DNA from: Obelidium mucronatum
Lineage: Eukaryota > Chytridiomycota > Chytridiomycetes > Chytridiales > Chytriomycetaceae
Assembly: GCA_025765595.1 (NCBI GenBank)
Contig: JAIVFH010000127.1
Span: 24,370-88,369 of the forward strand
Direction: 5' to 3'
DNA length: 64,000 nucleotides
Made by a program: the position numbers and the translations under genes. Below, one piece after another: positions 4,427 to 51,800 of this stretch; the first letter of the stretch is position 1, and each line of letters begins with the position of its first letter. Below the pieces are notes generated by a model that saw nothing but the letters and a program-made list of their open reading frames with translations, searched no databases and was not told where the DNA came from.

Positions 4427-4620
4427 ATGGAATCATTCCGCTCTGCTGGAAACGCGTACCATCTGCAGCGGCAGTTTACGAAGCAGTCGAATGCTACTCG
4501 AAGGGACTCGAGGCTGATCCGTCGAATCATCTGCTGCTTGGAAGCAGGAGCGCGAGAATACAGGCAAGACTAAAAGAAAGACTTCGCAGTGAGGATGGAC
4601 AGTTGGGATATAATCAGTGA
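4427..4620 (+). pseudogene. Internally deleted copy of the TPR-DUF4470-like gene
   Basis: The first ~130 bp match the start of the gene at 10673 (AGNAYHLQRQF, then a TPR-like helix pair). The sequence then jumps directly to the last ~60 bp of that gene, the equivalent of about 13545-13612. Roughly 2.7 kb, including the whole DUF4470-like part, is missing. The frame also breaks soon after the first 17 codons. It lies directly downstream of the flippase, as the intact copy lies downstream of the duplicated flippase tail. It is non-functional as a protein gene. Confidence 0.8.
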
Positions 4621-5154
4621 ACCTTGCAGCGTTGTCGAGTTGAAAAGGATTTGAATAAATGCATTTTATTATTCGCCTCTGTTCAGGAGGACGTTTTTCC
4701 GTGGTTGTCGGGCTTTCAAAATCAAAACAAAAACTTCTCTCAAAACAAAAATTCGGGAATGCCTTCATCCCCCACATCTGCCAACTACGCGCCTACGCCT
4801 CCTGCCTTTCGCATCGCATAACACCACCCTATCTCGCTAGTTGTGTAAGGAATAGCTTCTCTTTTATTGACAAACCGCCAGTGTCCTAACCACAAACACA
4901 CTCATGCCATAGACTTCGTCCATGATCACAGCATCTTATAAACACGCCATCCGCAGATATATCAGGCACCTATAACCTCGAATATCGACCTCTGCTCAAC
5001 GCGGAAAATTTCAAAGACCATTCATTCATAACGGATTCCGTTCTCGGCAAGCGGCACGACTACTCCTGGAGAGCGCTAGACGCCCCTCCGGATACGTGAT
5101 GAATGGGTGTAGAAATCGAGCAATTTTTTCGAAACCTTTTCAGCTACTGGGTTG
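4621..5154 (+). other. Conserved leader region upstream of array 1
   Basis: No gene. This stretch is closely similar to 13613-14107, which sits in the same place before array 2. It ends with a diverged first array unit: the apical CGACTACTCCTGGAGAGCG sequence lies near 5055 and a splice donor at 5155. Because it is duplicated together with the array, it is the natural place to look for the array promoter. No specific promoter motif could be assigned by eye. Confidence 0.55.
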
Positions 5155-6215
5155 GTATTTACTTTTGATGTTCTTGTTCAGTTTTTTTTTTTTGCAACTA
5201 TTCTTTTGTTTATTTCCAATCATTTGAGACTAAATCGCGACTCCCATCGCCTTTTTTTCTTGCAGCTCTCGCGGCACTGGGCATTAACATCAGAGACCTC
5301 TCCACTCATTATCCGTCCTGTTCTCGTCTGTGCAACGACTACTCCTAGAGAGCGCTAAGCACTCCTCCAGGCGGTGATGAGTGGGAGCAGATGTTGTAGC
5401 GATATTCTTGGGGCCACACGCGTGTTCAGTGCTGGTAATTCGGATTTTTCGATTATTTTTGCAACTATTCTTTTGTTTATTCCAATCATTTGATACTAAA
5501 TCGCGACTCCCATCGCCTTTTTTTCTTGCAGCTCTCGCGGCACTGGGCATTAACATCAGAGACCTCTCCACTCATTATCCGTCCTGTTCTCGTCTGTGCA
5601 ACGACTACTCCTAGAGAGCGCTAAGCACTCCTCCAGGCGGTGATGAGTGGGAGCAGATGTTGTAGCGATATTCTTGGGGCCACACGCGTGTTCAGTGCTG
5701 GTAATTCGGATTTTTCGATTATTTTTGCAACTATTCTTTTGTTTATTCCAATCATTTGATACTAAATCGCGACTCCCATCGCCTTTTTTTCTTGCAGCTC
5801 TCGCGGCACTGGGCATTAACATCAGAGACCTCTCCACTCATTATCCGTCCTGTTCTCGTCTGTGCAACGACTACTCCTAGAGAGCGCTAAGCACTCCTCC
5901 AGGCGGTGATGAGTGGGAGCAGATGTTGTAGCGATATTCTTGGGGCCACACGCGTGTTCACTGCTGGTAATTCGGATTTTTCGATTATTTTTGCAACTAT
6001 TCTTTTGTTTATTCCAATCATTTGATACTAAATCGCGACTCCCATCGCCTTTTTTTCTTGCAGCTCTCGCGGCACTGGGCATTAACATCAGAGACCTCTC
6101 CACTCATTATCCGTCCTGTTCTCGTCTGTGCAACGACTACTCCTAGAGAGCGCTAAGCACTCCTCCAGGCGGTGATGGGTGGGAGCAGATGTTGTAGCAA
6201 TTTTTTGACTTTGGG
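5155..6215 (+). repeat. Tandem exon-intron array 1 (266-bp units)
   Basis: Near-identical units repeat every 266 bp. Exon-like segments start at 5266, 5532, 5798 and 6064, each right after a tttcttgcag acceptor. Exons are 169 bp and end at CTG followed by the donor gtaattcgg. Introns are 97 bp with a gatactaaa branch-like site. The first intron (5155-5265) is diverged. Exon length is not a multiple of three and each exon has stops in the relevant frames, so it does not code. Each exon folds into a long hairpin: AACATC (5286) pairs with GATGTT (5390), and CCACTCATTATCC (5302) with GGTGATGAGTGGG (5373). The array lies between the deleted TPR-DUF4470-like copy and a BTB-like gene. Confidence 0.85.
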
Positions 6216-6220
6216 TTTTG

Positions 6221-7988
6221 ATGGAGTTGTGGGAAAGAAAACAAATTATTCAGATGAAACAACAACCAACAGATGCAACTAGACTCACTGCTCGTCTTTT
6301 AAATGCTGCGCAATTCAGGGTGTCAGATATTCTCGTCTGCTTGAGGCGTTACTCTGGGGAAGAAGTGACGGTTTCAATGGATCAAGGATACCGAATTGCC
6401 CGTGTTGCGACCAGGTGGGAATGGCCCGTCTTCGCGGTGAGGATGCCATTGTGTTGACGTTAAATTCAATCTTTCTTATCAATATTGCACTGGTTAGAAG
6501 CCGCCGGCGTCAAGTCTGTGAGAATTGGTGGCATTTTGCTTAAACTCCAGTTCCCAGGTGACAAATGGTTCCTTGAAAGTAGAGGCTAGTATATTGCTGA
6601 CGGCAATTTAAGCGCGTGCGACTTGGGAAATTGTTGAGGACCCTGAATTGCCAGCTGTGCTATCTCGACCCAACGTGGCGCGCCTTCCCACCAAAACGCG
6701 TCTCAATCGGGCAAAAAACGCAAGCGCCTAGCATGTGAGTGATTTATTGTATTCATAAACTTTCGCTCAACTAACTTCATTCCAATGTTTCACCATTAGC
6801 GCCTCCTTCAGAAGAACCTCCCCGCAAGTACAGAAAAACTCTGCACCAAACTGATCAAGGTGGTGGTCCGAGCCAGACAATTAGACCTATCGCTGATGAG
6901 CTTGATGATGAAGCCTCTCTACGCACTGGTAACGCGGATGAATCGAATGATGTTGCCACCGCTTTCGTGAAGCTGACCGCTGATTTCGATGTATCGAGGA
7001 AGCAAGTGTCAGATTTGAAACTAAGAAACCAAAAACTGGAAACTCAAACTGCAGAGCTGTCCAGTACTTTGGCGTCTGTTGTTGCAGAACGCGATTCTCT
7101 TGCAGCCCTACTTGATTTAAACCGCAGCAAGGGACAATAAGCCTCTCCTCACGCACCAAAGCCCGGTAAGTTACCTTCCGTTCAAGAATGGATTCATTTC
7201 ATCTGTTTCTCAAGCATCGACAAATCCAGAGAGATCCATTGAACTACGATAGATATGTTCTACTCATTCTCCAACCTATGGAACAAATGGAAAGAGCCGC
7301 AATAGCGGAGCAACTCACTGAAGGCGACTCAATTTGCATTGACTACATAAACCAAGCACTTTACCGCCATCGAGTATTTTGTCCATGCAAGCTCCTCCTT
7401 GAAGTTGCTAAAATCGCAGCATTGGCTGGTCTTCAACAACTCGTAGAACAGTGCTTGGAATATTTTATGATATTGTTTTTGGAGGATTGCGATGCCTTCA
7501 AGTTTTGCTCTTTTGGATGGGAACTGAACTGCGCTAAATTTGACGATCAGGCAATAGAGATAGGCGCACGTGGAATGACGCGCTTATTTCCAGATTGGGA
7601 AAAGTCAGACTCAAGACGGGTGTGTCCTCGAGAGAACGGAAGGGAGATGTTGCAGAAGTTGAGCGTTCCTGCCTTCAAAGTGTTTGTCAATCGTCCTGTG
7701 TTTATCGTTCGCCATAGATGGATTCTTTTCATTAGTTGGATGAAGGTGCATGCAGACATACCAGGGCTGAAATTGAGAAGTGGATTGCAAGGGTTAGACA
7801 ACAGAACCACAGCGTGCTATCTCGAAATGGTCTTGCCACGATTTGGCGAGGAGTTAGCAGCGGCCAACGAGCCTGACCGCTTCTTTATAGAGCGGGTGGC
7901 GCCATTTCTTCCTGCCATTTCAGAGGGTCAGAGCGAGGTGACCAAACGATGCATCCTTGCATTCGAAAGATATTCCGATCCGTTGTAA
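6221..7988 (+). CDS. Coiled-coil protein with BTB/BACK-like C-terminus, copy A
   Basis: Paralogue of the gene at 22416-24553, with the same order of parts. It has an N-terminal segment (RVSDILVCLRRYSGEEVTVS), a VKSVRIGGILLKLQFP exon near 6495-6556, a Lys/Arg-rich linker, and a coiled coil (KLTADFDVSRKQVSDLKLRN, about 6970-7030). A C-terminal domain opens at about 7211. It includes a BTB-like YHR..CPCKLLLEVAKIAAL helix region and a long helical tail ending at 7988. Introns were inferred from GT-AG pairs and the paralogue. An in-frame stop at about 7138, after the coiled coil, is not seen in copy B, so this copy may be broken or need an extra splice. Function is unknown; BTB/BACK similarity is weak and structural. 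It is adjacent to the end of array 1. Confidence 0.55.
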
Positions 7989-8744: not shown

Positions 8745-10490
8745 CGTTGAACATTAAACTGGTGTGAAGTTTGAGTTGACCGCTGAAGGCATCTGGGTCA
8801 TCTTCACTATTGAGAAGAGAAGAGTTTGCCGCAGGATTATACGAGAGCTGCGTGGTATGGATGGATCTTGACAGTGTTTGGAAATGCGGCGCGGGACTGC
8901 TCATGGATGGTGCTGTGGGAGTAGTTGACCGTTTCGAAAAGAATGATGGAGAGTTTGGGTCGCGGCTGGAACGGAGACGAAGGTCGGGGGATGTCTGCGG
9001 GCGCTTGAGGTGGTGGTGTTGAAGCATTTCTTTTGACCGTTGGCCGCTGGACAACAACGGAAGGCAGATCTGTACTTGCTCGACCGCTAGATCGGCTTCC
9101 TGTGCTACCGGGTGGTGAAGGAAAAAGAGAGAGGCCGGTTCGTTTCACAGTTCCGGTGTTTCGAGTTGGTGATGTTTGACTTCGAGGTGATGTTTGAATT
9201 TGTGGACTGGTTGGAGGCGATACAGACGCTGATGGATGAGGCATGGCTGCAGCATACCGACTGTCCCGTGAATCCAATCTAGCTGACGATAACTCCAGCC
9301 GCTTTTTTGCAACAGGTGCCAAGTTTGACAATTCCGAGGTCAAATCTTCAGTGACGTCTTCTTCTTCACGAACAGAGTCCATTCGTTCCATTCGTTCGTC
9401 CACAGCAATTTCTGAAGCAGTGTACACACTCGCGCGGTCTATATGCCGTACCAAATGTGCTGGATGTCTTGCCGCCGATGTTTGTGTGGCCAAATCAGGA
9501 TCGCTATTTCGTGATGTAGTTCGGTCCAATGTGTCGTACTGTTTTGTTGTTTTAGTAATACATCGTTTGGTACAATTAGTCTACGGTAGTTAAAAAGCAA
9601 TTCACAGCCTTCGGCTGTATAGAAAATTCACAGCCTTCGGCTGTATAGACAATTCACAGCCTTCGGCTGTATAGAAAATTCACAGCCTTCGGCTGTATAG
9701 ACAATCCACAGCCTTTGGCTGTATGCCATCGCCTTCGGCGATGAAGGCAAGACGATTGAACCACCGCCTTCGGCGGCACAATTCGCCTACGGCAGTAAGT
9801 ACTGAATAAAAAAAAAAGAAATTCACAGCATTCGGCTGTATACCATCGCCTACGGCGATGAAAAAGCAAGTCACAGCCTGTATAGACAATTCACAGCCTT
9901 CGGCTGTATACCATCGCCTTCGGCGATGAAGGCAATACGATCGAGCCACCGCCTTCGGCGGTACAACTTCCCCTTCGGCGCGCGCAATGCAGCCTTCGGC
10001 TGTACACCATCGCCTTCGGCGATTTGATTCCCAACTCACAGTAGTAGCAACCTCATCATCCCCTACATCTTCATCTTCATCTTCATCAAAACCCCAACCA
10101 TTCCCAACCAACTCCGTAGAAGAAATATCATCAAAAGAAGAAGACCGACTAGGACGATCCGATAAACCATCAGCTGATAAACCATCATCAGAACCACCAG
10201 CAGTTCCAAACATGCTAATGTCGGACATTACAGTATCCAATTCCAAAATCAATTTGGATGCATTCATTGTCGAAGCATGTTTCTGAATCGGAATCGACTT
10301 TTTTCACAGTCATTCTTCGATTCACGAGGGCACAGGACATTTGGAGAGTAGGAGGACGGTATTCGAGTTCAGCGGCGGTGAATGATATCGCGGATAGAGA
10401 GGGAGATATTGGAGAAGTAGTAGGGATTTGGAAAGGTCTGCGTGGCGGGTCGTGAATATCCGTGAAAACAGTGGGTTGTGGTTTTTCTGC
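8745..10490 (-). pseudogene. Truncated duplicate of the PH-domain gene (middle part)
   Basis: On the minus strand this matches the part of the PH-domain gene lying at about 28620-27160. From 5' to 3' it holds: KPQPTVFTDIHDPPRRP with EYRPPTLQMS (10470-10310); NASKLILELDTVMSDISMFG and an acidic stretch (10267-10040); an intron full of palindromes (about 10040-9541); and a Ser/Pro-rich exon beginning YDTLDRTTSRNSDPDLATQ (9540 downward). The last exon stops at about 8745, just after the first strand of the PH domain (GQLKLHTS), so the PH domain is absent. One frame break lies in the Ser/Pro-rich exon relative to the other copy. The gene start (GC-rich exon 1) is also absent: at about 10490 the sequence switches to the flippase tail. 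Confidence 0.8.
9600..10027. repeat. Cluster of about 17 palindromes with CCTTCGG centres
   Basis: Short perfect hairpins sit head to tail. Three stem types share the same centre: ACAGCCTTCGGCTGT, CATCGCCTTCGGCGATG and CCGCCTTCGGCGG. As RNA they give C(UUCG)G tetraloops, an exceptionally stable loop type. They are separated by short A/T-rich spacers such as atagacaattc. One unit near 9873 lacks its loop and right arm, and some have a changed loop (cctacgg, cctttgg). The whole cluster lies in one intron of the PH-gene copy. The equivalent intron of the other copy (about 27955-28176) has only about six. Confidence 0.9.
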
Positions 10491-10672: not shown

Positions 10673-13612
10673 ATGGCAACATTCCGCACTGCTGGAAACG
10701 CGTACCATCTGCAGCGGCAGTTTGCGCAAGCAGTCGAATGCTACTCGAAGGGACTCGAGGTTGATCCGTCGAATCATCTGTTGCTTGGAAACAAGAGCGC
10801 TTCGCTGTTTGAAATGGGAAAGTACAGCGACAGTTCAGCAAGCGCAAAAGCAGCTCTTTCTCTCGAAGAAAAAGTGGAACTGAATCTGAAAAGTGGAGGT
10901 TGAAGTTGGTCTCAAGAGTTGTCTCGTGTGCAATCCAGTTGGGTCTCGGACAAAACTCTCTCCACGAACTGGACCCCGACTTGCTCCAGCACAAAGACGT
11001 GGCTTCTCTAGTGAATTTACTCGGTGTCAAGCGTGTCTCGGAGCTCGATCCGTTGCTTGTCAAAGCAACAAGTGTGTTTACACGTCCCACCATTGTTTCC
11101 ATGCCAACGGGATTCGAGTACTTTCCTGTCGGCCATGATCCAGCACGAAGTCTTATTGCTGGAAATGAGGGACTGAATGATCGGGAAACAACTCGCGACG
11201 CGTTGAAGCGTGTTCCAGTAGAGAAGCTCAAGAGTTTTTCTGTATTGATGGGGGGTGAGCAACAACACCACATGTATGTCCGCTGCTTACCAATTAACCG
11301 ACATGTGTGATTTTAAAAACACAAAGGTTGTGGCGATGCTCGTCATATGTATGCCACCTTGGATGATTTCAAGTTCCAGTTTGCAGAAAACAGACCAAAA
11401 GGCTTTTACTCCAACAATGTCAGCATGAAATTCCTGCTTAATGATTTGAATCCCACTATTCTCGCGCGCCAGATTTTGATTCTCACGTTCATCATGCGAT
11501 TGGGCAGAGCCAAACCATCTCGGACAAATCCAGACTTCACTCTCAATCTTGCTGTCTTGACATATTTATACGTTGGTATGGCCGTACCAACGCAGATCTT
11601 CGATGCCATCTACTCTGCTATTTGCGAATTTGCGGAAGATTTTGAGGCCTCCCTTGCGGCCCATCTGCCGTTTGTGTGCTTTTTCGACGTCCAGTCGTCC
11701 AAAGCTATTCATAAAGTCTTTTGCTTGTGGCGTGATAAATCGCAGGCTTATACGGCCCAGAAGATACTCCTCGGATACAACAGGGGATCCGGTTGTTCCA
11801 TCTCCAAACCAGACGGGTCGCCAAATGCAGACATGTCTGATGCTATGAAGAGTATTTACGAAAGAAAAAAGCAAGAGACTGCAAGCGAAAGGACCTCCGA
11901 TATTTCGGACCAGGAAGTCCATGAAATTCTTCCAGGCAGCGAGTCAGCAGATCGAAAGCGGTTGCTCATGTGCGCCTATCTATCGGACGGAGATCTTGAC
12001 GCTAGGGTCTTCGGCACTACCTTTAGCGATTCTCAATTTCTTCAATCTGAGAAGTGCTTGTTGCCTCCTGTCCAATTACCGGGGTTAGACTCGCGCGTGA
12101 AGAATGCCATCGAGGAAATACGGTTTGGGTTTTGTAAAGATGGGAAGATGGACATTGTTGCCGACAAAGATTGGAGGATTCTGAGGAATTATGTCCAACA
12201 ATACAAAGCAAATCCGGCGATGGTTGACTTCGAATATTTGGAATCGATGGGAGGCATTGTCGACCGAACTTTCAACGTAGAAGATGTCGTGAGAATGTTT
12301 AACCATCAGAGAATTGGCGAACGTGATGAAGCTGGAACCGATGTCTTTGACTTTTTTGGGATGGTTTTCTATTCTTCTTCGATTGCCTTGGAGCGCCTCA
12401 ATGTCAAGATTAAGCTCCACGTCGGATGCATGTTTTCGCTTGCACAAGAACTAGGCGAATCTTCTTCGAGTGACGGCCGATTTGATCGAATTACAGTCAA
12501 CAATGTCCCCGACTATTCCGGCTTGTTGAATTCACATCTTCTTCTCACACCGCTGCTCAAGACCGATAACCCAAAATATCCCGCCTTCATGATATCAAAC
12601 TGTCTTTTGAACACCGGTATCTGGACTGACTACAACGAGTATATATTTAGCAGCTCCATGTTTAGTGATAGGTCCGAGATGGAGTTCCTCCTGGGAATCA
12701 AGTTCTTGTGTGGCGATTTGTTTGGAGACGATGCTCATTGGCTGTTCAACCCGACTCCTGCAGTTGCCAATGCTTTTGACCAGCGCGATGTTCTTGTAAA
12801 CTGGCTGCATCGCCTACTTCTTGGAATAGCCTACCCTGCTCGACGCGCTCAAAAACGATACGCTGAAGTAAATCCTTTGACTTTAAACACCTTCCTAATG
12901 GCAGTTGAACGACTTTCCAAAACCGTTCCTAAGCATTGGCTTTCGCAAGTTCTTCAAGATCTACTGTTTTCAAGTTCTATTAAGACCAAGGCAATCCCAC
13001 CAAGGCACTCCCCCAACAAACCACCGCAAGCGAACTCCGCGGGACCAACAGCAACACATGTTCTTCACATCAAGCCAATACAGCCCGAACTCCTTGCGTT
13101 GACTACTTTATGGCATCATAACCACCCGGAAATCATTTCCGCGATTGCTTTTTGCGTTACCTTCAGTGTCTGAAATATGTGTCATCAAAACTCCCGAATT
13201 GGTCCTCAAATCCGCGTTTGAGTTATATGGATTCAACAATTGTTTGGGTCTTGCAATTGTTCCTTTGCGAATCGTGGAACAGGATAGTGAAGGATCTTTC
13301 GCGCAATTTTTTTCCCCATTGCGTTTCAATTCGTCGAATGCATTGTATCGCAGCGTCGTTGAAATGCAGGAAGGAAACTCGTATTTGTTTTCGAGCATTT
13401 GGAGGATAGAGCGAGGGAGGGATTTAGACGATAAGGGTGTGTTGCAATTAGGATTCACTGCTGAAAGAGAGTTTCTTGTTTTGCTGCAGTTGATGGATGA
13501 GGAGAATACTGGCAAAAAACAAAAAGAAAGACTTGTGGCTGTCGCAGTGAGGATGGATAGTTGGGATATAATCAGTGAACCTTGCAGTGTTTTAGAGCTG
13601 AAATTAATTTGA
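10673..13612 (+). CDS. TPR protein with DUF4470-like domain
   Basis: The start ATG at 10673 gives TFRTAGNAYHLQRQFAQAVE, a TPR unit with YSKGLEVDPSNHLLLGNKSA next. After an intron at 11255-11326 comes GCGDARHMYATLDDFKF, followed by a segment with SMKFLLNDLNPTILARQILI. This is the hallmark layout of DUF4470 proteins, found in fungal TPR/MYND proteins and in dynein-assembly factor DNAAF3. The rest of the ~930 residues has no domain I recognise. Two frame breaks are present: near 10891 (one base short) and near 13148 (one extra T in a T run). Both sides read as good coding sequence, so I favour assembly errors. The gene lies after the duplicated flippase tail and before array 2. Its function is unknown; a role in axonemal assembly is only a guess from DNAAF3. 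Confidence 0.75.
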
Positions 13613-14107
13613 ATAAATTCATTTTATTATTCGCCTCTGTTGAGGAGGACGTTTTCGCGTAATTGTCGGGCTTTCAAAATCAAAACAAAACTTCTCTCAA
13701 AACAAAATTCGGGAATGCCTTCATCCCCCACATCTGCCAACTACGCGTCTACGCCTCATACCTTTCGCATCGCATACCACCCCCCTATCTCGCTAGTTGT
13801 GTAAGTAAATTTCTCTTTTATTGACAAACTGTCAGTGTCCTAACGACAAACAAACTCATGCCATACAATTCGTCCGTGACAACAGCATCTTATAAACACG
13901 CTATCCGCAGATATCTCAGGCACCTATAGCCTCGAATATCGACCTCTGCTCAACGCGGGAAATTTCAAAGACCATTCATTCATCACGGATTCCGTTCTCG
14001 GCAAGCGGCACGACTACTCCTGGAGAGCGCTAGACGCCCCTCCGGATACGTGATGAATGGGTGCAGAAATCGAGCAATTATTCAAAATCTCTTGTGCAAC
14101 TGGGCTG
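13613..14107 (+). other. Conserved leader region upstream of array 2
   Basis: The counterpart of 4621-5154. It contains the AATAAATTCATTTTATTATT stretch that may supply the poly(A) signal of the TPR-DUF4470-like gene, then a region conserved in both loci. It ends with a diverged array unit, with the apical sequence CGACTACTCCTGGAGAGCG near 14015. In this unit AAATTTC and GAAATC replace the outer stem of other units and can still pair. The donor is at 14108. Confidence 0.55.
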
Positions 14108-16645
14108 GTAATTAATATATGGATAATGTTATTCTTACGCGTCTTATTTGCATTTTTACTAACTATTGATTCTCTCTACCAGCTTTCGCGGCACTGGGTT
14201 GGACATCCACATCCACATGCGTGGTCGGGGCTGGTAACATACTTTAATTTCAACTTTTTTCAGCGTTTCCTTTTATTCCCATTCATCTGATACTAAATTT
14301 CGCTTCTCCTTTCTACTACAGCTCCGGCAGCTCTGGCCATAAACGTCTCAGACCTCTCCACTCATCACCCTGTTGCCAGTGTCACGACTACTCCTGGAGA
14401 GCGCTAACATTCCCTTCAACGGTGATGAGTGGGAGCAGACGTTGTAGCAAAAGTCTTGGCGGCACATGCGTGGTCAGGGCTGGTAATATACTTTTATTTG
14501 ACACTTTTTCGCGTTTTCTTTTATTCCCATTCATCTGATACTAAATTTCGCTTCTCCTTTCTACTACAGCTCCGGCAGCTCTGGCCATAAACGTCTCAGA
14601 CCTCTCCACTCATCACCCTGTTGCCAGTGTCACGACTACTCCTGGAGAGCGCTAACATTCCCTTCAACGGTGATGAGTGGGAGCAGACGTTGTAGCAAAA
14701 GTCTTGGCGGCACATGCGTGGTCAGGGCTGGTAATATACTTTTATTTGAACTTTTTCGCGTTTTCTTTTATTCCCATTCATCTGATACTAAATTTCGCTT
14801 CTCCTTTCTACTACAGCTCCGGCAGCTCTGGCCATAAACGTCTCAGACCTCTCCACTCATCACCCTGTTGCCAGTGTCACGACTACTCCTGGAGAGCGCT
14901 AACATTCCCTTCAACGGTGATGAGTGGGAGCAGACGTTGTAGCAAAAGTCTTGGCGGCACATGCGTGGTCAGGGCTGGTAATATACTTTTATTTGAACTT
15001 TTTCGCGTTTTCTTTTATTCCCATTCATCTGATACTAAATTTCGCTTCTCCTTTCTACTACAGCTCCGGCAGCTCTGGCCATAAACGTCTCAGACCTCTC
15101 CACTCATCACCCTGTTGCCAGTGTCACGACTACTCCTGGAGAGCGCTAACATTCCCTTCAACGGTGATGAGTGGGAGCAGACGTTGTAGCAAAAGTCTTG
15201 GCGGCACATGCGTGGTCAGGGCTGGTAATATACTTTTATTTGAACTTTTTCGCGTTTCCTTTTATTCCCATTCATCTGATACTAAATTTCGCTTCTCCTT
15301 TCTACTACAGCTCCGGCAGCTCTGGCCATAAACGTCTCAGACCTCTCCACTCATCACCCTGTTGCCAGTGTCACGACTACTCCTGGAGAGCGCTAACATT
15401 CCCTTCAACGGTGATGAGTGGGAGCAGACGTTGTAGCAAAAGTCTTGGCGGCACATGCGTGGTCAGGGCTGGTAATATACTTTTATTTGAACTTTTTCGC
15501 GTTTCCTTTTATTCCCATTCATCTGATACTAAATTTCGCTTCTCCTTTCTACTACAGCTCCGGCAGCTCTGGCCATAAACGTCTCAGACCTCTCCACTCA
15601 TCACCCTGTTGCCAGTGTCACGACTACTCCTGGAGAGCGCTAACATTCCCTTCAACGGTGATGAGTGGGAGCAGACGTTGTAGCAATTAGTAGGCTTCTC
15701 AGGCGTGTCTGGAGCTGGTAAGATCTTTATTCTGTTTTCATCCCATTGTTTCTACATTTGTTCTCAGCTAAAACGCGCTTTTTTGACTACAGCTTGCAGC
15801 TCTAGGCATTAACATCCAAGACCTCCCCACCTTCTTGCGCGACCAGTGCCTGCCGTGCCACGACTACTCCTAGAGAGCGCTAGGTCATACCTCCTGGCGG
15901 CAATGGTGGGAGCAGATGTTGTAGCCGATTCCCTTTGTCTGTCAAGGTGGCGTGCTGGGAGCTGGTAAAACTTGCATTCTCGTTGTTTATCACTTCTGCT
16001 TTTATTTGCAATCACTGGTTACTAACTCGCGATTTTTTGACCACAGCTTGCAGCTCTAGGCATTAACATCCAAGACCTCTCCAATCATTGCGCGACCAGT
16101 CTCCGCCGTGCCACGACTACTCCTAGAGAGCGCTAGTCACGCCCGCTGGCGGCGATGAGTGGGAGCAGATGTTGTAGCAATTAGTGGGCTTCTCTGGCGT
16201 GCCTGGAGCTGGTAAAATCTTTATTCTTGATGTCTCTGCATTTATTCTCGGCTAAAACGCGCATTTTTTTAACCACAGCTTGCGGCTCTAGGCATAAACA
16301 TCCGAGACCTCTCCACTCATCGCGCGACCAGTCTCCGCCGTGCCACGACTACTCCTGGAGAGCGCTAGTCACGCCCGCTGGTGGCGATGAGTGGGAGCAG
16401 ATGTTGTAGCAAATAGTGAGCTTCTCTTGCGTTCCTGGAGCTGGTAAAATCTTTATTCTTGATGTCTCTGCATTTATTCTCGGCTAAAACGCGCTTTTTT
16501 TAACCAAAGCTTGCGGCTCTGGGCATAAACATCCAAGACCTCTCCACTCATCGCGCGACCAGTCTCCGCCGTGCCACGACTACTCCTAGAGAGCGCTAGT
16601 CACGCCCGCTGGCGGCGATGAGTGGGAGCAGATGTTGTAGCAATT
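14108..16645 (+). repeat. Tandem exon-intron array 2 (247-bp and 231-254-bp units)
   Basis: Exon starts after acceptor AGs lie at 14183 (short, hairpin missing), 14322, 14570, 14817, 15064, 15311, 15558, 15793, 16047, 16279 and 16510. Units from 14570 to 15558 are 247 bp and almost identical. The last four are diverged in sequence and length but keep every splice signal: CTG|GTAA donors, CTAAA/CTAAAAC branch-like sites and a pyrimidine-AG acceptor (aaag in the last unit). Each exon carries the hairpin, for example AACGTCT (14590) with AGACGTT (14685) and CCACTCATCACC (14606) with GGTGATGAGTGG (14669), around CGACTACTCCTRGAGAGCGCTA. There is no reading frame across units. The array ends about 80 bp before the convergent 3' end of SKI3. 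Confidence 0.85.
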
Positions 16646-16725
16646 AATAGGCTTTTGCCTGGAGGTTGGAGGAGCATTGGAGTTTTGTTTCTTGAGATAC
16701 ATAAAACTTCATCAGACAGTCTTTC

Positions 16726-19700
16726 TTATCGCAGATTAAACTCGTTCGAAAGCCAGAGCGCCCATTCACACTCCCCATCCTTTTCCATCACTACTGCCAC
16801 CACTCTCTTGGTCTTGTTCAACGCACCCGCATTCCCAAACTTCATCATGGACACACACTGCAACAGTCCAAGGTCAGAAGCACCACTACCCGCCACATCC
16901 AAGCTCTTCAGTTGTTCTAGAGCCGCTGTAGCCTCCTCTCGGTTTTCTTGAATCAAATAAAGCTGCGTCAAAACAATCGCTTGTGAAGAGACGGTATGGC
17001 AGTTTGAAAGCGCCTGCATCAATGAGACAACCGATTGTTGCCACAGATTCGAGTCTGCATAAGCTTCGTCAAGTTCCTGCCACATTTTTTCAACATCAAA
17101 GCTTGCCAAACAAACAAATGGAAAAAAAAACAACCAAAAAACAAACCTCCCACAAGGAAACCGAATCCGGTATACAAGTGATTGCATTCTTGTACGCACC
17201 CAACGCAGTTCATTGCTCCCCCATCGCAAACAACGCCAACAGCATACCCCGTCGCCATCACCCTCTAATCCAAGCATTCACTATCAGATCGCGCCGGTTC
17301 CGCCATTTCCAAAGCATTTTGAAAGATTCCCGTGGCTGCCTCTTCGTTCCCTTGAGCCAACTGTGCAACCCTGCGAATCACTCTGGAATCGGCAGATTTG
17401 ACCAGGATATATCAAGTGCAGTGGATCCCAATAGACTTGCAGCGTTGTTACACACAACTTCCGTTCCTCTCGTGGATGCGTCTACGTTATCTGGTTCCAA
17501 TAACTTGTCGGCATCCTCCATGGTTCGAGCGTGTAACCCCCAACCCCCAACGAGAGCCACATGCACGGATCCGATGAATTGCTGTGAACAGCAGAGTGGA
17601 AGCATGAGAGTGCTGATTTTGTGAACTTCTTTGTTGTTTCTTTGGTGCAACAGCAGAAACTGGAGGTCGCAGTCAACAAGGCATGTCCGAGTGTTTTTTG
17701 AATAGACGCAAGTTGAGGGCTCGAAATTGAAGATGACGATGTACCAGGTTTTAGAATGCTGAAGTAATGAAGCTGATGTCGCCACAGTCACCAGGGATTC
17801 TTGAATTTCTGGAGCATACCTTTTTAGAAAAAAAAAACAAACAGCCAAGGATATAAGCACACAAAAAACAGAACAACAATCAACACACAAAAAGGCATTT
17901 TTTACCTCGAAATATTGTCAGCTAGCAGCAACCAATTTGTAGCCTTCCAAGGCGCCTGATGAATACTTCTCGCCAAAAACCCTCTACTCAATTTACTACC
18001 TCCTTGCAACAAGAAATACCGACTCAACAGCATGTTCTTGTCTGCTTCTAGCCCGCCAATCATCATTGTATCTGGTTTCTCCTTGATCAACTCTGCCGCT
18101 GCTTCCTGTGCAAGCTCATCATTCTGCGAAACAATACCCAAGGCCAGTAGAGATATCAAAGCCTGGGGGAAAGAAACACCCCGCTGAAGACTAAACAAAA
18201 AAAAAAATGATGTTTTTTTTTTTTTTTTTTTGGTTTTTGGGGGTGAGAATTAGAACTGTTGGAATCGCAAAAATTCCTCTTACCACGCCAACAACTGCTC
18301 CTTCGCCAAACCCAAATGAACATCCGCACCCAAAGCAAACAACACTTGACTCAACAAAAGCCTCACATTATTCTGCAATGAAACATCCGGCGCCTTCATC
18401 CCCGACAGAATATTCAACGCCTCTTGAAACAAGGTCAAACTCTCTCCCTCGAAAAATAGTGCCAAACCAAACCAACTCTCGTCAACACAGTATCCCCGCC
18501 ACCGCCACTCACCTCAGAAACCCGCCGTAACTCCTTATACACTTCAATCGACTCGCCATACAACCCAGCCGAACACAACGCGCGCGAATAATTCGCCAAA
18601 CACTGCTCCAACTCCTCCTTTCCACCCCTCCCTCCATTCTTACGACAAATTTCAACAGCCTTCCCAAACGCTGCCACAGCCTCCCCAAACACACCTTGCT
18701 TCTCCCGCAACAACCCCAACAACGTGAACCCAGCCGCATCGTTTGCAGAGGCTTCACAGAATTAATCATGCTAAACACGGGGACTGCTAATACACTTGAA
18801 TCTTGCTCCAACAATGCCTTGAAGGACAAAGAGGACGTGTATTTTTGGTATTCAGATAACGCGTACGAATACCCGATTTCCAGGTTTTGACCCTGAGATA
18901 GGTCGTTTGCGTGATCAAACAAATCAAGAGCTGCAGCTGCGGTAGGTTCCTTGTTGCCATTGTTGCTGGTGCTGGCGGCGGCTGAGGCAGCGCTTTGGTT
19001 AATCAACGCCTGTCCATACCAGCTGAGGCAAGTTTCAAAATCTATCAATTGCGCGCGATGGAAGCATTGTTTCGCCAAATCAAAGTTCTCATTAAAGTAA
19101 TAAAAGTAACCCAAGTTTGTCCATGCCTCGGCATTCTAAAAGAAAAAAAAGTTGGTATTTTATGATATGTATGATGGTGAAACGATTTTTTTTTTTCTAC
19201 CTTCTCATTCAACTCTACAGCCTTAACAAACGCATGCTGCGCAACCTTCAAATTCACATGAAACACCACACAACCCAACGAATTCCACAACTCTTGATTC
19301 TCTGGATCCAACTGCAACGCTTTCCATAAACTCGCCAAACTGCATTTCAAGTGTTTCTCTTGTTTAGTCACGTTGTACAGGTAGTGATACGCCATGGCAA
19401 GGTCGTGGAGATACGCTGGTTTCATGAGGGTTTGGAAGGCGGCGGCGGTGGGGGTTGCTGCAAATGTGGATCGCGATTTCATAGGCTGCGATCGCGAGGA
19501 TCAAGTGCTCGAGTGTAGATACTCACGCTGTCGTCGTCGTTGTTGGTTTCGCTTTCCTCCGTGTCGTCGTCGTTGACCTCACACCATAGAACCCTGAGCC
19601 CATTTTCAAGAACCCCCAGATCCACCAATTCGGCAGCAGCCGAGACTTGAACACATAAATTGACATGGCAACGTCTCCCAAAATCTTGAAAATAGTTTGG

Positions 19701-25561: not shown

Positions 25562-28500
25562 TTATTTGGTCGACTTTGACCTCCCAAACAAGGGAAACAT
25601 TTTCCGCTTCTCAGGTTTCGCAGCCACAGCTGCAGTTCCATCATACGGTTTGACCGCATTAACACTCGCCGCAAGTCCTACCCCAACTTTCCCCAACACA
25701 ACTGGAGACGCAGCCCGACTGGCACCCTAAATTCACACTCCTACTCCCACCACCACCTCCATTCACCATCGGCGACGCAGGTCGACTCATTGTCGTCGTC
25801 ACACCCGCAGTATAACTCCTCGTCCCCGGATTCAAAATAGGGCTCCCTGCACGCACACCCGCACTCATGGTCCTCGCCATCGGAACACCCACTCGATACT
25901 GCTGGTCCAAAGACACACCAGCAGAGGGCGACCCCACACGGTGAGACGACAAGTTTCCAGGCGAAGACCCCCCGCGTTGCATTGATTCGCCGTAACTACC
26001 GCTCAATTTTTGTTGACTTCTTCGTGTGAGTACGGGCGGGATGAATTCTTCCTCGTCAATGTTTTGGAATTGGTTTGTACTGCGTTTCCGGCCGAGGAGG
26101 TTATATGGGTCCAGGATATCTGAGGAGTTGTTGGAGGAGCGGCGGTCGCGTTCGGTTCGCGACATTTCGGGGTATGGGTGCAGGGGCTCCTTGTGCTGCA
26201 AATTGCCGTTGTGTGCCGCTATTGTTGTTGTTTTGGGCCGAGTTGGAGCTGGATGCGACAGAGTATTTTCGACCGTTTCCGCTGTTGTTTTGGGAACCGC
26301 CGATTCCACTGTCGGCACTATATCCAGGGAATGGCGGGCCGTTGTTGTTGTTCGTGTTGTAACCGTTTGTGGTATTATGCATTGAACCGCCGCTGCCGCC
26401 CGTATCTCCGGTTTGGATTGATAATCGTCGGTTGTCGTTCTGCGCCGCTTGTAGTTCAGCCGTTATTTCTTGTTGTAATTGGAGTTGTTGGGCAACAGCA
26501 GCCATGAGTGCCTTCTGTTGAGCCAACAATTTTTGCTGCTTTTGAAGTTGAATTCGAAATGTCTTCTTGTGTGAGAATCGATTGTTGGCGGCGCATGCTT
26601 TGGGAATAATAGTTTGGTGTGACTGGTCGCGATTCCTAGAAAGAAAAATAGGGTGTCAGCCAAACGCTTGTCAGACATAAAAAAACAGTAAACTCACAGA
26701 TTGCGTGAATGTATGAATACTAACTGACGCACTGGGTCGCGGTTGAGCCTCCTAGAACAAGCCACCAAATATTAGCAATTGACAACTTTAAGGGACAAGA
26801 GAAATAAAGAGGAAGTAAAAAAAACCCCAAACCAATTGCTTCAAAGACTCCACAAATCCTTGCATCGCATCCACCCAACGATCCCGATCCTCATTCTTAC
26901 TCGCCAAAAAGTAGAAATACTCTTTCCGCAACAACCCATTATCCAACTCCTTCACTTTCACAACTTTAAATGTCGGTTTCCCACGGAAACACATTGGCAA
27001 CACCGCCTTGGTTCCCAATACTTTCAACTTCAGTTCGATGGTTTAATTCAATGAATCCAACCACTTGCTCGGTTCTTCCGGCTCCTTTCCCGGTTTTGAC
27101 GTAGTAGAGGCCCGCGTTTACGAGGGGAAAGGACAAGCACGATTTCTTGCCATGCGTTGAACATTTTGCTGGTATGCAGTTTGAGTTGACCGCTGATGGC
27201 ATCTGGGTCATCTTCGCTGTTGAGGAGAGAGGAGTTTGCAGCAGGATTATACGATGGACTGTGCAGTATTGATGGATCTTGACAGTGTCTGGAAATGCGG
27301 AGCGGGACTGCTCATAGATGGTGCTGTAGGAGTAGTTGACCGTTTCGAAAAGAATGATGGAGAGTTGGGTCCGCGGCTGGAACTGGAGACTGAAGGTCGG
27401 GGGATATCTGCGGGCGCTTGAGGTGGTGGTGTTGATACATTTCTTTTGACTGTTGGCCGCTGAACAACTACGGAAGGCAGATCGGTGCTTGCTCGACCGC
27501 TAGATCGGCTTCCTGTGCTACCGGGTGGCGAAGGAAAAAGAGAGAGGCCGGTTCGTTTCACAGTTCCAGTGTTTCGAGTTGGTGATGTTTGACTTCGAGG
27601 TGATGTTTGAATTTGTGGACTGGTTGGAGGCGATACAGACGCTGATGGATGAGGCATGGCTGTAGCATACCGACTCTCCCGAGAATCCAATCTAGCTGAC
27701 GATAATTCCAGCGGCTTTTTTGCAACAGGCGCCAAGTTTGACAATTCCGAGGTCAAGTCTTCAGTGACATCTTCTTCTTCACGAACAGAGTCCATTCTTT
27801 CCATTCGTTCGTCCACAGCAATTTCTGAAGCAGTGTACACACTTGCGCGGTCTAAATGCCGTACCAAATGTGCTGGATGTCTTGCCGCTGATGTTTGTGT
27901 GGCCAAATCAGGATCGCTATTTCGTGATGTAGTTCGCTCCAATGTGTCGTACTGTATGTTGGATGTGGTTTAGTTGATTTAGTTATCAGTCGCCGAAGTA
28001 CTGAATAAAAAGATTCACAGCCTTAGCCGAAGTACTGATAAAAAGATGTTCACAGCCTTCGGCTGTATGCCATCGCCTACGGCGATTAAAACCAAGTCAC
28101 AGTCTTTGGCTGTATAGACAATTCACAGCCTTCGGCTGTATACCATCGCCTTCGGCGATTTGATTCCCAACTCACAGTAGTAACAACCTCATCATCCCCT
28201 ACATCTTCATCTTCATCTTCATCAAAGCCCCAACCATTCCCAACCAACTCAGTAGAAGAAATATCATCAAAAGAAGAAGTTCGACTAGGACGATCGGATA
28301 AACCATCAGCTGATAAACCATCATCGGAACCCCCAGCAGTTCCAAACATGCTAATTTCCGACATTACAGTATCCAATTCCAAAATCAATTTGGATGCATT
28401 CATTGTAGAAGCATGTTTCCGAATGGAATCGACTTTTTTCACAGTCATTCTTCGATTCATGAGGGCACGGGACATTTGGAGAGTAGGAGGACGGTATTCG

Positions 28501-41608: not shown

Positions 41609-41641
<33 letters not shown>
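41609..41641 (+). repeat. Homopolymer of 33 G
   Basis: An uninterrupted G run immediately downstream of the nitroreductase stop, in an otherwise AT-rich 3' region. It would form a G-quadruplex-prone 3' UTR if transcribed. It could equally be a sequencing or assembly artefact, since the exact length of such runs is unreliable. Confidence 0.9.
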
Positions 41642-48864: not shown

Positions 48865-51800
48865 TGAAGAAACAGTCGCAACGACGACTGTTCTGGCTGG
48901 AGACCCGGAACCTCATCATGATACCATTACCACCACTACCACGACCGTAGATGGTGCTGAAACTATTACCACAAAAGTGATTACAAGCGTTATTGAAGTG
49001 AGGAAAAACCACACCCTTATTATTAGCTTTCAAACCTACACACACACACACACCACTGAATTGATTCATTAACAAAAATAAAAACAGAACTCATCAGATG
49101 AAATCTCATCTTCCCGCACAAGCGACACACCAGACCCCATCGTGATCCAAAACGAATCAACCATCATTGGAGAAAACGGCGAGATTGTGAAGGAAATCAC
49201 AGTCACCGAAACCCACCAAGTTACGTCCTTGAAACCAGTCGAGATTGTTGTCGAGGAAGCTGAGAAGCGCTATGAAGAGACTGTTGTTGAAGAAGGAGAG
49301 TTGGATATTGTTTGGCTGGCTGGAGAGATTCGAGCCAATGTTGGAATCGCGGCTTTAGAGCTGAATGATAATGAATTTACAAGTGCGGATATTCTTCTTA
49401 TTTCGGAGGTTTGTGACTGGGGATTTCTTGTTTTTGTCTTTGTGTTTTTGGAGACTCACAAGCTTCGATTTGATAAAAAAGGCACTCCACACAAACACAA
49501 CCTTGGAGAAATTGGATCTTCAAGGAAACGAAATCAAAGATGATGGACTCCTTGCGATTGCAACTGCACTTGGAATCAACGAGCATTTGCGAGAACTCTA
49601 TATTGGTCAGCAGCAGCTGATCGCTAGTCCCGAAGTCGAAGAGGCTTTGGCTGCAGCCATAATCAAGAACCAACAGTAAGTTGGAAATATTATACTCCAA
49701 TGTCCCAGCCATCTTGACCCTTTTTTCATTTTCGATCAGTATTCTTGTTTTCACATACACGTTCCAAAACGTTTCTCTGCGCACACAAGTGGACGAAGCA
49801 CTCTCTCGGAATGCTGCAGCTTATGCTATTTATAAATCTCGGAAACACGTGAAAACCATCTATGTTGAAGAAACGACAGAAGTTACCACTGTCAAAAAGG
49901 AGCGAGAAGTTGTGAAAACGGCAGAAGAAGCTCATGCAGAGGCTCTTGAATTGGAAGCAGCAGCTGCAGCAGCAGCAGCGGCATCAAAAACAAAACAAAC
50001 TGAATCTGTGGAAATCCTAGACGGCTGCCTAAAACCAACCGAGGAGACGTGCGAGGGGGTGGTAGTTGATGCACCGGCTCCAACTGATGTCACCATTGAG
50101 GAACTACCAGTAGATCCTATCCAAGAAGCTGACTCTGCGGTCGCACGCTCTGTAGAAGTGGTGCAACCTGTTGAGGAAGCATGTGTAAAGCCAACTGTGC
50201 TCGAAGTTGAAACGGTTGCAGAAACCGCCCGAACTGTTCGTACCAATCATATTATCCACTGTCCGTTGACTTTCGATTATTATTGTCTCTAGGAAACTGT
50301 TTTGGCTGAAGTGTGCGAGACTCCTGCCGAAACGACTGTTACTGAAGTTGTGGTCGAGACCGTCTCTACTCCAGCCGAGACTATTGTCTCCGAGACTGTG
50401 GTAACTGAGACTATTGTTGTTGACGCGTGTGTGGATGCTGCTCCAGCGGAAACACGCGATATTGTTGTCATTGAAACTGCCGACGCGCCAGCTGAATGCG
50501 CCACTGCTGAAGCTGTCACTGAATGTGCGCCTGTTGAAGTCGTGGAAGTTGCTCCAGTTGAAGCCGCCGTTGCTGAAGTCGCCGCTACTGAAACCATTGT
50601 GGAGGAGGTCCCAGCTGAAACCAAGGAAGTTGTTGTTGAAACTTACACCGAGTCAACGTACACTCCAGTCGCCGAGTCTGCTCCAGTTGAAGCCGCCGTT
50701 GCTGAGGTTACCACCACCGAAACCATTGTGCAGGAGGTCCCAGCTGAAACCAAGGAAGTCGTTGTAGAGACATACACGGAGTCATCGTACACTCCAGTTG
50801 CGGAAACGGCTGCTCCAGTCGTTGATGTGGTTGAAGTTGCCGTTTCTGAAGTTGCTGTGCCACTCGAGACTGTCACGGAAACCGTCGTTGTTGCTGAAGA
50901 GGCGCCCAAGAAGCTGGGTCTCTTTGGCTCTCTGTTTGGCCGCAAGCCATCTGCTAGCACCACTACTACCAAGACTACCACCACAACCACTACCACTACC
51001 ATCACTTCTGGTGGCGAGGAAACTGTTGCTGTCGTTACAGACCAGCAAGTCACCGAAGCTGTTGAGGCGCCATGTGCTGTGGAAACAATTGTTGAGGAAA
51101 CTCCAGTTGTTGAAACAGTTGTGGAAAAGGTGGCCGTTGTGGAGACTGGTGAGTGCGCTGGAGAAGCTCGTGATACAGTGAATGAAGTTGGCTCTGTTGC
51201 TAAAGTTTCGACTTTAGAAATGGCTTTAGTAGCAGATGAATGCGTTGGTGTTGATGCTTCATTAACCAGTACATCCGCTGATGATGGTCAAATGACAGAG
51301 GAGATTTGTGCACAACCAAGTTTGGCTCAAACTGTTACATCGGATCAGTCGGTTTCATTTCCCGAAACGAAGCTCCCGAAACGTCGCATTATCATCGAAA
51401 GAATTGTGGGTGATGTTTCGTCGCAGCCAAGTGCGTCTCATGGAACTGTTTTGTCTGGAGTCCAGGCACAGACCGAATTTATTGCCGAGGATTCTGGTTT
51501 GGATGTAGTTCAAGAGCGGAGTTCATTGGCGCCGGAGTCAGATTATATTTTGGAGCCTGGAACTCTCCACGCAAATCACGATTCTGTTGATTTTATTGAT
51601 CAAGAAGCGAATCAAGAGACTATGGAAGTTTCTGACGATTCATACCCAATAGAGGAAGAGCGCACCCGACTTTCCTTAGGCGATGTAAAGGAATCTGATT
51701 TTGACACCTATGAGGAATACCTTTCTGCCCAAGATTCTGCGTCTTTGCAGATTGTTGAACGTGAATCCATGTCAGAAACTCCTTGTGTACCAGATGAGGT

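Follow-up and report, generated by a model that had tools for sequence, protein, structure and literature searches.

Several noncoding RNAs are known to carry one element in many copies. The mammalian long noncoding RNA Firre bears a repeating RNA domain (RRD) in 7 of its 13 human and 11 of its 23 mouse exons (PMC4820808), and this exonic repeat, given as about 156 nt long (PMC7151548), is described as a signal for retention in the nucleus to which hnRNPU binds (PMC4820808). Repeated small stem-loops are presented as the conserved functional feature of the Drosophila roX RNAs, whose repeat number correlates with chromosome occupancy (PMC4719309), and Hsr-omega, a noncoding RNA with tandem 280-nt repeats, is reported to gather RNA-binding proteins (PMC7151548). 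In fission yeast, the noncoding meiRNA holds several copies of a protein-recognition motif and is a proposed decoy of Mmi1 (PMC4077057). Here we analyze two tandem arrays of exon-intron units, array A and array B, in a 64,000-nt stretch (the window, C127:24370-88369) of the 48.3-Mb, 694-contig genome of Obelidium mucronatum. Each exon appears to fold into an elongated hairpin module with an almost invariant tip, and splicing would raise a further hairpin at the seam between neighboring exons.

Like Firre, these arrays have a layout that fits a repeat carried in several exons of a spliced noncoding RNA, as read here from the genome; unlike in the mammalian gene, every unit consists of one exon plus a short intron, the units stand in tight tandem, and there are 11 arrays. 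The exonic-repeat layout is already known from Firre, and the arrays stand apart by the covarying module in each exon together with the predicted seam hairpins, neither of which is part of Firre as described (PMC4820808). Small repeated stem-loops are shared with roX, but the roXbox sequence differs, and in the account given the roX2 repeats lie on one exon and those of roX1 in a domain (PMC4719309). For Hsr-omega the source gives a repeat stretch of ~10 kb, with no exon-intron period described (PMC7151548). With meiRNA the arrays have in common a fungal host and several copies of one motif. The motifs of meiRNA are short and linear rather than structured modules, and it is not known to have a tandem of exons.

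Database searches agreed with an initial annotation of this DNA, which knew of no described fungal RNA family of such design. Rfam 15 gave no match at the gathering threshold in the whole window, the exact core pattern (22 places) had no match in viral contigs or prokaryote genome contigs, one class T exon had none in phages or plasmids, and no description of this RNA was found among titles and abstract beginnings of the open-access papers searched. The arrays look like a new family of structured noncoding RNA.

A search with the core motif (up to 5 substitutions) detected 81 modules genome-wide in 11 arrays, spread over 5 contigs with 5 arrays on C12, several of them with duplicated flanks. 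Scattered copies with abrupt ends, target duplications or a coding gene would mark a transposable element, and what bears on that possibility here is this distribution of the loci and their flanks. The window holds 16 modules (11 in array B and 5 in array A), and a covariance model search of the window also returned 16; that model was built from 61 distinct modules, and its recovery of all 81 in the array loci holds by construction. With up to one mismatch, the 19-nt core pattern matched 80 times in the genome, 79 times exactly and every time within the arrays, against no match for the reversed control, so its recurrence is not due to chance. The order of parts is the same throughout: a conserved upstream lead element, a divergent leader module (unit 0), and then 4-11 exon-intron units (ten arrays uncut by a contig end). 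Unit 0 occurs in 11 places genome-wide, once at the start of each array. The lead element occurs in 13, namely at the 11 arrays, at the end of contig C458, which truncates a 12th lead, and as an array-less, decayed relic (78%) at C12:10338-10421, within locus L050 (C12:5500-11500). The covariance model (E<=10) found no module at the relic or at the C458 contig end, and the relic locus is probably a dead array. Between distant loci, what can still be aligned upstream is some 120 bp within unit 0 plus short segments of the lead, the parts retained between otherwise diverged loci, and downstream similarity ends about 60-80 nt past the core start of the last module. The initial annotation had counted about 10 units at 14108..16645 and about 4 at 5155-6215. 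We found 10 full units in array B and 4 in array A, but both extents fall short, with the leader module omitted in each case and the 51-nt exon of array B overlooked. The 231-254 bp given for the last four units of array B comes close to their core-to-core spacings of 240, 253, 232 and 231.

Donor, branch site and acceptor are present in 70 of 70 inter-module gaps, a count to be read as none having failed, as the script patterns asked for the forms counted; in one gap, the first of array L009, the script took an earlier AG than another pass did. Donors are GTAA (54 gaps), GTGA (8), GTAG (6) and GTAT (2), and branch sites read CTAA in 68 gaps and TTCAAC in two, starting 21-36 nt before the AG end. 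With a GT donor, a branch site and an AG at consistent positions, the gaps can be taken as predicted U2-type spliceosomal introns. Where no partial exon intervenes (66 gaps) they measure 54-111 nt, and the other four gaps, of 200-214 nt, enclose a 51-52-nt exon devoid of the hairpin. Internal exons span 160-177 nt over all loci; in array B the full-unit exons span 160-172 nt and the introns between them 66-87 nt. Among six class representatives, mean identity was 0.75 for exons, 0.57 for introns and 0.50 for shuffled introns, and for one pair of classes out of 15, B1 and R, intron identity was level with that of the exon (0.67 and 0.66). On the whole, exons and splice signals have been kept and intron bodies not, in keeping with the early remark that the last four units of array B retain every splice signal despite intron divergence. 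A spliced-leader RNA, which has a donor without its own downstream acceptor, was rejected, since branch site and acceptor follow the donor in every inter-module gap.

The structural model of the exon is an elongated hairpin. Its apical 19 nt (YGACUACUCCUNGAGAGCR) hardly vary and form the hairpin Y-G-[A]-C-U-[A]-C-U-C-(CUN)-G-A-G-A-G-C-R with two bulged adenosines; its closing pair is C-G in 43 and U-A in 18 of the 61 distinct modules. The stems below change sequence between classes and keep their pairing: the outermost, stem A, reads ACAUC/GAUGU, ACGUC/GACGU or AUUUC/GAAAU, stem B for example CCACUCAU/AUGAGUGG against CAUUCAUCACG/CGUGAUGAAUG, stem C CCAG/CUGG, CCUG/CAGG or UCCG/CGGA (and, by eye, GUUG/CAAC), and stem D GUG/CAY or GCG/CGC. 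Compensatory changes of this kind in stems A-E agree with the earlier description of the exon as structured. Run on an unfitted alignment (A1), RNAalifold recovered the apical hairpin and stem D by itself; stems A-C are drawn by eye and were counted afterwards. Between stems A and B lies an internal loop, C-NNA-G-A-C over G-(C/U)-A-G, which resembles a kink turn in its 3-nt bulge, possible G.A pair and C-G ends, as far as the source sets these out (PMC3985660). NNAGAC with (C/U)A opposite is present in 77 of 77 parsed units, where the parser required this pattern, and by eye in the four unparsed. The standard kink turn has an A.G pair at 2b-2n and so G at position 2n, unlike the C found here or the U of leader modules L010_0, L011_0 and L018_0. 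As U is described as the commonest 2n nucleotide of the Kt-23 kink turn (PMC3985660), the loop is possibly a non-standard kink turn.

We quantified pairing in three ways. In the hand parse, which fitted 77 of 81 units, 41 of them distinct (L010_7, L012_0, L014_0 and L017_2 were dropped), 1186 of 1231 cells in the distinct units held standard pairs, against a mean of 1099 and a maximum of 1118 in 1000 shuffles, and both sides had changed in 9 of 31 pairs; a stem C that the parser seems to have set wrongly in one class depresses the count. In A1, 87.9% of 1992 cells were paired, with 90 doubly changed cells against 21.2 in shuffled data and a covariation score of 0.159 against at most 0.106 when slid. 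In A2, an alignment fitted to the model and biased towards structure, 91.7% of 1997 cells were paired, covariation was 0.229 against at most 0.111, and both sides had changed in 13 of 34 pairs against 10.1 shuffled. Among ten class representatives, duplexes of a module's own arms averaged -38.4 kcal/mol and those with foreign arms -29.5, so that an arm swap costs ~9 kcal/mol. In the module stems, G.U cells outnumber A.C cells 43 to 14 (of 978), yet by position the two are even (8 against 9), and this strand asymmetry is one of cells and not of positions.

A second structure would arise at the exon junctions. The last 12 nt of an exon are complementary to the first ~17 nt of the next, as in UGGUCAGGGCUG followed by CUCCGGCAGCUCUGGCCA (class B1), UGCCUGGAGCUG by CUUGCAGCUCUGGGCA (T) and UGUUCAGUGCUG by CUCUCGCGGCACUGGGCA (A). 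Splicing would thus form a hairpin of 9-13 bp with its loop at the junction, a local hairpin possible only once the intron is removed. After the leader, 63 of 63 junctions are bridged by at least 9 bp (mean -18.1 kcal/mol), whereas the 11 first junctions average -9.9 kcal/mol and four of them are bridged by 0-1 pairs. The 63 seam loops are cUCCGg (13), gCUUGc (12), cUCUCg (12), gGUCUCGc (9), gGUUUCGc (8), cUUCUg (6) and three types that occur once each. UNCG and CUUG tetraloops are known for their stability. Global folding of the RNA spliced in silico placed seam hairpins at 3 of 3 such junctions in array A and 8 of 10 in array B. Total energy was -347 for array A, where 15 mononucleotide shuffles gave -324 (sd 8), and -859 for array B, where as many shuffles gave -721 (sd 14). 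In ten gapless pairs (classes B1, T and A) of the 31 distinct, the junction stem comprises 100 Watson-Crick cells, 24 G.U, 1 A.C and 1 other, and such an excess of G.U over A.C would be expected where pairing is maintained in the sense RNA. Compensating changes separate the classes here too, the third pair being G-C, C-G or U.G and the eighth G.U, A-U or U-A. Exon ends that are complementary and meet only after splicing lend evolutionary support to splicing itself, of a kind that the initial annotation lacked.

Taken together, the sequence comparisons point to each array specifying one spliced noncoding RNA of structured modules, most likely a multivalent protein-binding platform, an interpretation that we put first and for which we judge the chances evenly balanced. 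Transcription would start near the conserved lead element, and the spliceosome would append one near-identical exon after another to the leader module. Once mature, the RNA would be a string of elongated hairpins, each presenting the same apical hairpin with its two bulged adenosines, and hairpins of 9-13 bp would form at the seams as introns are lost. Many copies of one protein or ribonucleoprotein might dock on the apical hairpins of a single RNA, which could serve as decoy, scaffold or condensate seed, and array length, altered by unequal exchange, would set the valency. We favor docking sites because the apical hairpin is invariant while the stems below keep pairing more than sequence. More tentatively, and with somewhat less than even confidence, we propose that splicing assembles an RNA polymer, in which identical structured modules are strung together by the spliceosome and splicing itself creates connecting hairpins with super-stable tetraloops; the spliced state would then be structurally marked at each seam after the leader, and copy number tuned by recombination.

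Several observations weigh against the platform interpretation. RNAalifold on A1 missed stems A, B and C, for which reason these are author-drawn, placed a CCC/GGG helix that competes with B, and reached a total of -4.55 kcal/mol. In the same alignment, the 8 doubly changed pairs are exactly what shuffling gives on average, and there are fewer extra pair types (22) than after shuffling (29.4). The own arm outdoes every foreign arm in just 3 of 10 rows, folding z-scores of single modules from six classes (-2.4, -1.2, -1.6, -3.3, -4.7 and -0.2) are not exceptional throughout, and the core hairpin is part of the minimum-energy fold in only 5 of 10 class representatives. Because these z-scores vary and the apical hairpin folds in half of the representatives, the evidence for structure is one of compensation and not of raw stability. 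At the junctions, own halves beat all foreign ones in 3 of 6 class rows (B1, A and N, not T, R and R2), and with the ends cut to 9 + 15 nt, the 31 distinct pairs average -10.4 kcal/mol for own, -9.1 for foreign and -4.4 for shuffled combinations. The protein partner of the apical hairpin is hypothetical, and the support is genomic sequence from one species, with paralogues and probable alleles in an estimated 6-8 sequence classes as the basis of comparison. Two coding stretches of contig C127 match C12, in reversed order, with identities of 100% and 96%, so C127 is probably either an allele of C12 or a recent duplicate; C134 and C418 look like similar copies by flank identity, and the 11 arrays may therefore amount to about six independent loci.

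The alternatives differ in what they make of the paired exon ends, and the probabilities that we attach to all these readings overlap and need not sum to one. Exon-end pairing could act before splicing and keep the donor of an intron close to its own acceptor, which would let neighbors be joined in order, with the role of the RNA lying elsewhere; this is partly compatible with a multivalent platform, and we consider it rather unlikely. In the precursor, the 9-13 bp helix would indeed close each of the short introns, and every junction after the leader has it. However, the UNCG- and CUUG-type loops at 25 of the 63 seams matter only after intron loss, and splice signals are intact at the four first junctions that have next to no bridging pairs.

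The long transcript might instead be a precursor that yields many copies of a small structured RNA, its exon modules being excised or back-spliced into circles of one exon each; we regard this as unlikely. Each exon is a self-contained folding module whose 5' and 3' ends are complementary to one another, so that a circle back-spliced from one exon would bear the same seam hairpin. Yet among 13 exons in which the two pairings differ by >2 kcal/mol, pairing with the next exon is the stronger in 10 and pairing within the same exon in 3. The hairpin-less exons follow suit: in L012, L014 and L019 the 3' end pairs at -24.9 kcal/mol with its successor against -11.3 with its own 5' end, and in L010 at -18.6 against -12.3. 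The 51-nt exon of array B, with the former two values, pairs with the next exon over 13 bp. This next-exon preference supports linear joining but falls short of proof, because halves linked across a short intron would partly be expected to show it. No processing signal was identified, none having been sought beyond Rfam, whose best weak match in 13600-16750 (E<=10) was the microRNA family mir-4868 at 20.2 bits against a threshold of 70. The arms of a microRNA precursor are conserved more than its loop. In these modules the apical hairpin is the most conserved part and the arms vary by compensation, and a microRNA or microRNA-like (milRNA) precursor was rejected.

A neutral satellite, in which an exon-intron block without function is amplified by unequal crossing-over, we hold to be improbable, although units are near identical within an array and copy number varies between probable alleles: counted with the leader, modules number 8 and 11 in L010 and L019, 12 and 5 in L011 and L018, and 7 and 5 in L012 and L014, differences that are a sign of rapid unequal exchange. 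Against it stand the compensatory substitutions and the invariant core in exons of 75% identity beside introns near background, together with the G.U excess in the junction stem, which points to a sense RNA.

That the repeated exons belong to a gene which codes for protein, or did so until recently, is very improbable, since 42 of 59 internal exons are closed by stops in all three frames, exon lengths are mixed, and module loop lengths differ by non-multiples of three. In its favor, 17 of the 59 have one stop-free frame, and the longest ATG frame in the arrays spliced in silico reaches 87 aa (B; 46 aa in A), but only 6 of 59 have a frame that continues into an identical next exon. A 135-aa array frame, read through an intron, had no match at E<=0.001 among 5.8 billion proteins (9 word-sharing candidates), and a protein-like frame of class B1 (HDYSWRAL...) was rejected as broken between classes. 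The initial annotation had likewise thought a protein unlikely; its conclusion stands, and its premises do so in part, as exon length is a multiple of three in 22 of 59 internal exons and the stops that it noted leave the 17 partly open exons aside.

If transcribed and spliced as predicted, the arrays would make up a structured RNA family, so far undescribed, of an early-diverging fungus. Comparative data alone would then report on splicing, through hairpin halves that flank each intron, and the arrays uncut by a contig end would offer a natural system for RNA multivalency, with a leader and 4-11 modules per RNA, as well as for ordered splicing of tandem exons. The apical hairpin would be a bait for its protein partner. 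Table 1 lists the parts of both arrays in the window and the gene that precedes array B.

Table 1. Parts of arrays A and B and the neighboring gene, in window coordinates
Feature	Position	Strand	Remarks
Array B lead element, candidate promoter/5' end	13635..13720	+	directly after the DUF4470 gene
Array B putative exon 1	13630..13800	+	start inferred from lead alignment; donor GTAAGT at 13801
Array B leader module (unit 0) exon	13911..14107	+	core 14011-14029; covariance model 126.4 bits
Array B 51-nt exon without hairpin	14183..14233	+	both exon ends kept
Array B unit 1 exon	14322..14482	+	class B1; core 14385
Array B example intron	14483..14569	+	GTAATA...CTAAAT...CTACAG
Array B unit 2 exon	14570..14730	+	class B1
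Array B unit 3 exon	14817..14977	+	class B1
Array B unit 4 exon	15064..15224	+	class B1
Array B unit 5 exon	15311..15471	+	class B1
Array B unit 6 exon	15558..15717	+	chimera: body B1, 3' end T-class
Array B unit 7 exon	15793..15964	+	class T7
Array B unit 8 exon	16047..16211	+	class T
Array B unit 9 exon	16279..16443	+	class T
Array B last exon	16510..16671	+	module kept, donor absent; 3' end arbitrary
Array A lead element	4677..4764 (C127:29046-29133)	+	92% to array B lead
Array A leader module (unit 0) exon	4957..5154	+	core 5057; covariance model 122.7 bits
Array A unit 1 exon	5266..5434	+	
Array A unit 2 exon	5532..5700	+	
Array A unit 3 exon	5798..5966	+	
Array A last exon	6064..6228	+	3' end arbitrary
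DUF4470/TPR protein gene, near full length	10673..13609	+	protein match ends 13609; host context, outside the RNA

The gene ahead of array B encodes a product 94% identical to the hypothetical protein BDR26DRAFT_916160 of Obelidium mucronatum, which itself matches C12 at 98-100%; the domain call was made on the C12 copy, P0001. The match in the window holds one in-frame TGA, and an AATAAA lies just past the end of the reading frame. Before array A, at 4480-4651, stands a fragment in which the N-terminal end of the DUF4470 protein is fused to its C-terminal end, and fragments like it lie ahead of the C12:116.5k array and the C458 lead. A DUF4470 gene or fragment lies ahead of 6 of 12 array leads (C12:105.7k, C127:35k, C12:116.5k, C127:28.8k, C12:159.3k and C458), none was reported ahead of five others, and one further lead begins at a contig edge. 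DUF4470 as a host gene of the arrays was set aside, and its presence at these six leads is treated as co-duplication.

The window also contains a different hairpin array, of tandem short palindromes with TTCG loops (ACAGCCTTCGGCTGT, CATCGCCTTCGGCGATG and CCACCGCCTTCGGCGGT), at 9598-10026 and 28049-28160. One such palindrome has 71 matches genome-wide with up to one mismatch and none for the reversed control, in clusters on C36, C142, C239, C127 and C12 and as single matches on C25 and C31. On the minus strand, at 8837-9580 and 27247-27969, two very similar reading frames (SRNSDPDLATQTSAARHPAHL...) lie about 18 kb apart, each adjoining a short-palindrome array, as in a duplicated segment. At 50293-55579, long reading frames with a high content of Val, Glu and Thr carry long near-identical repeats and are likely to mark a recently amplified repeat protein gene, and a run of 33 G occupies 41609-41641, inside or beside a reading frame.

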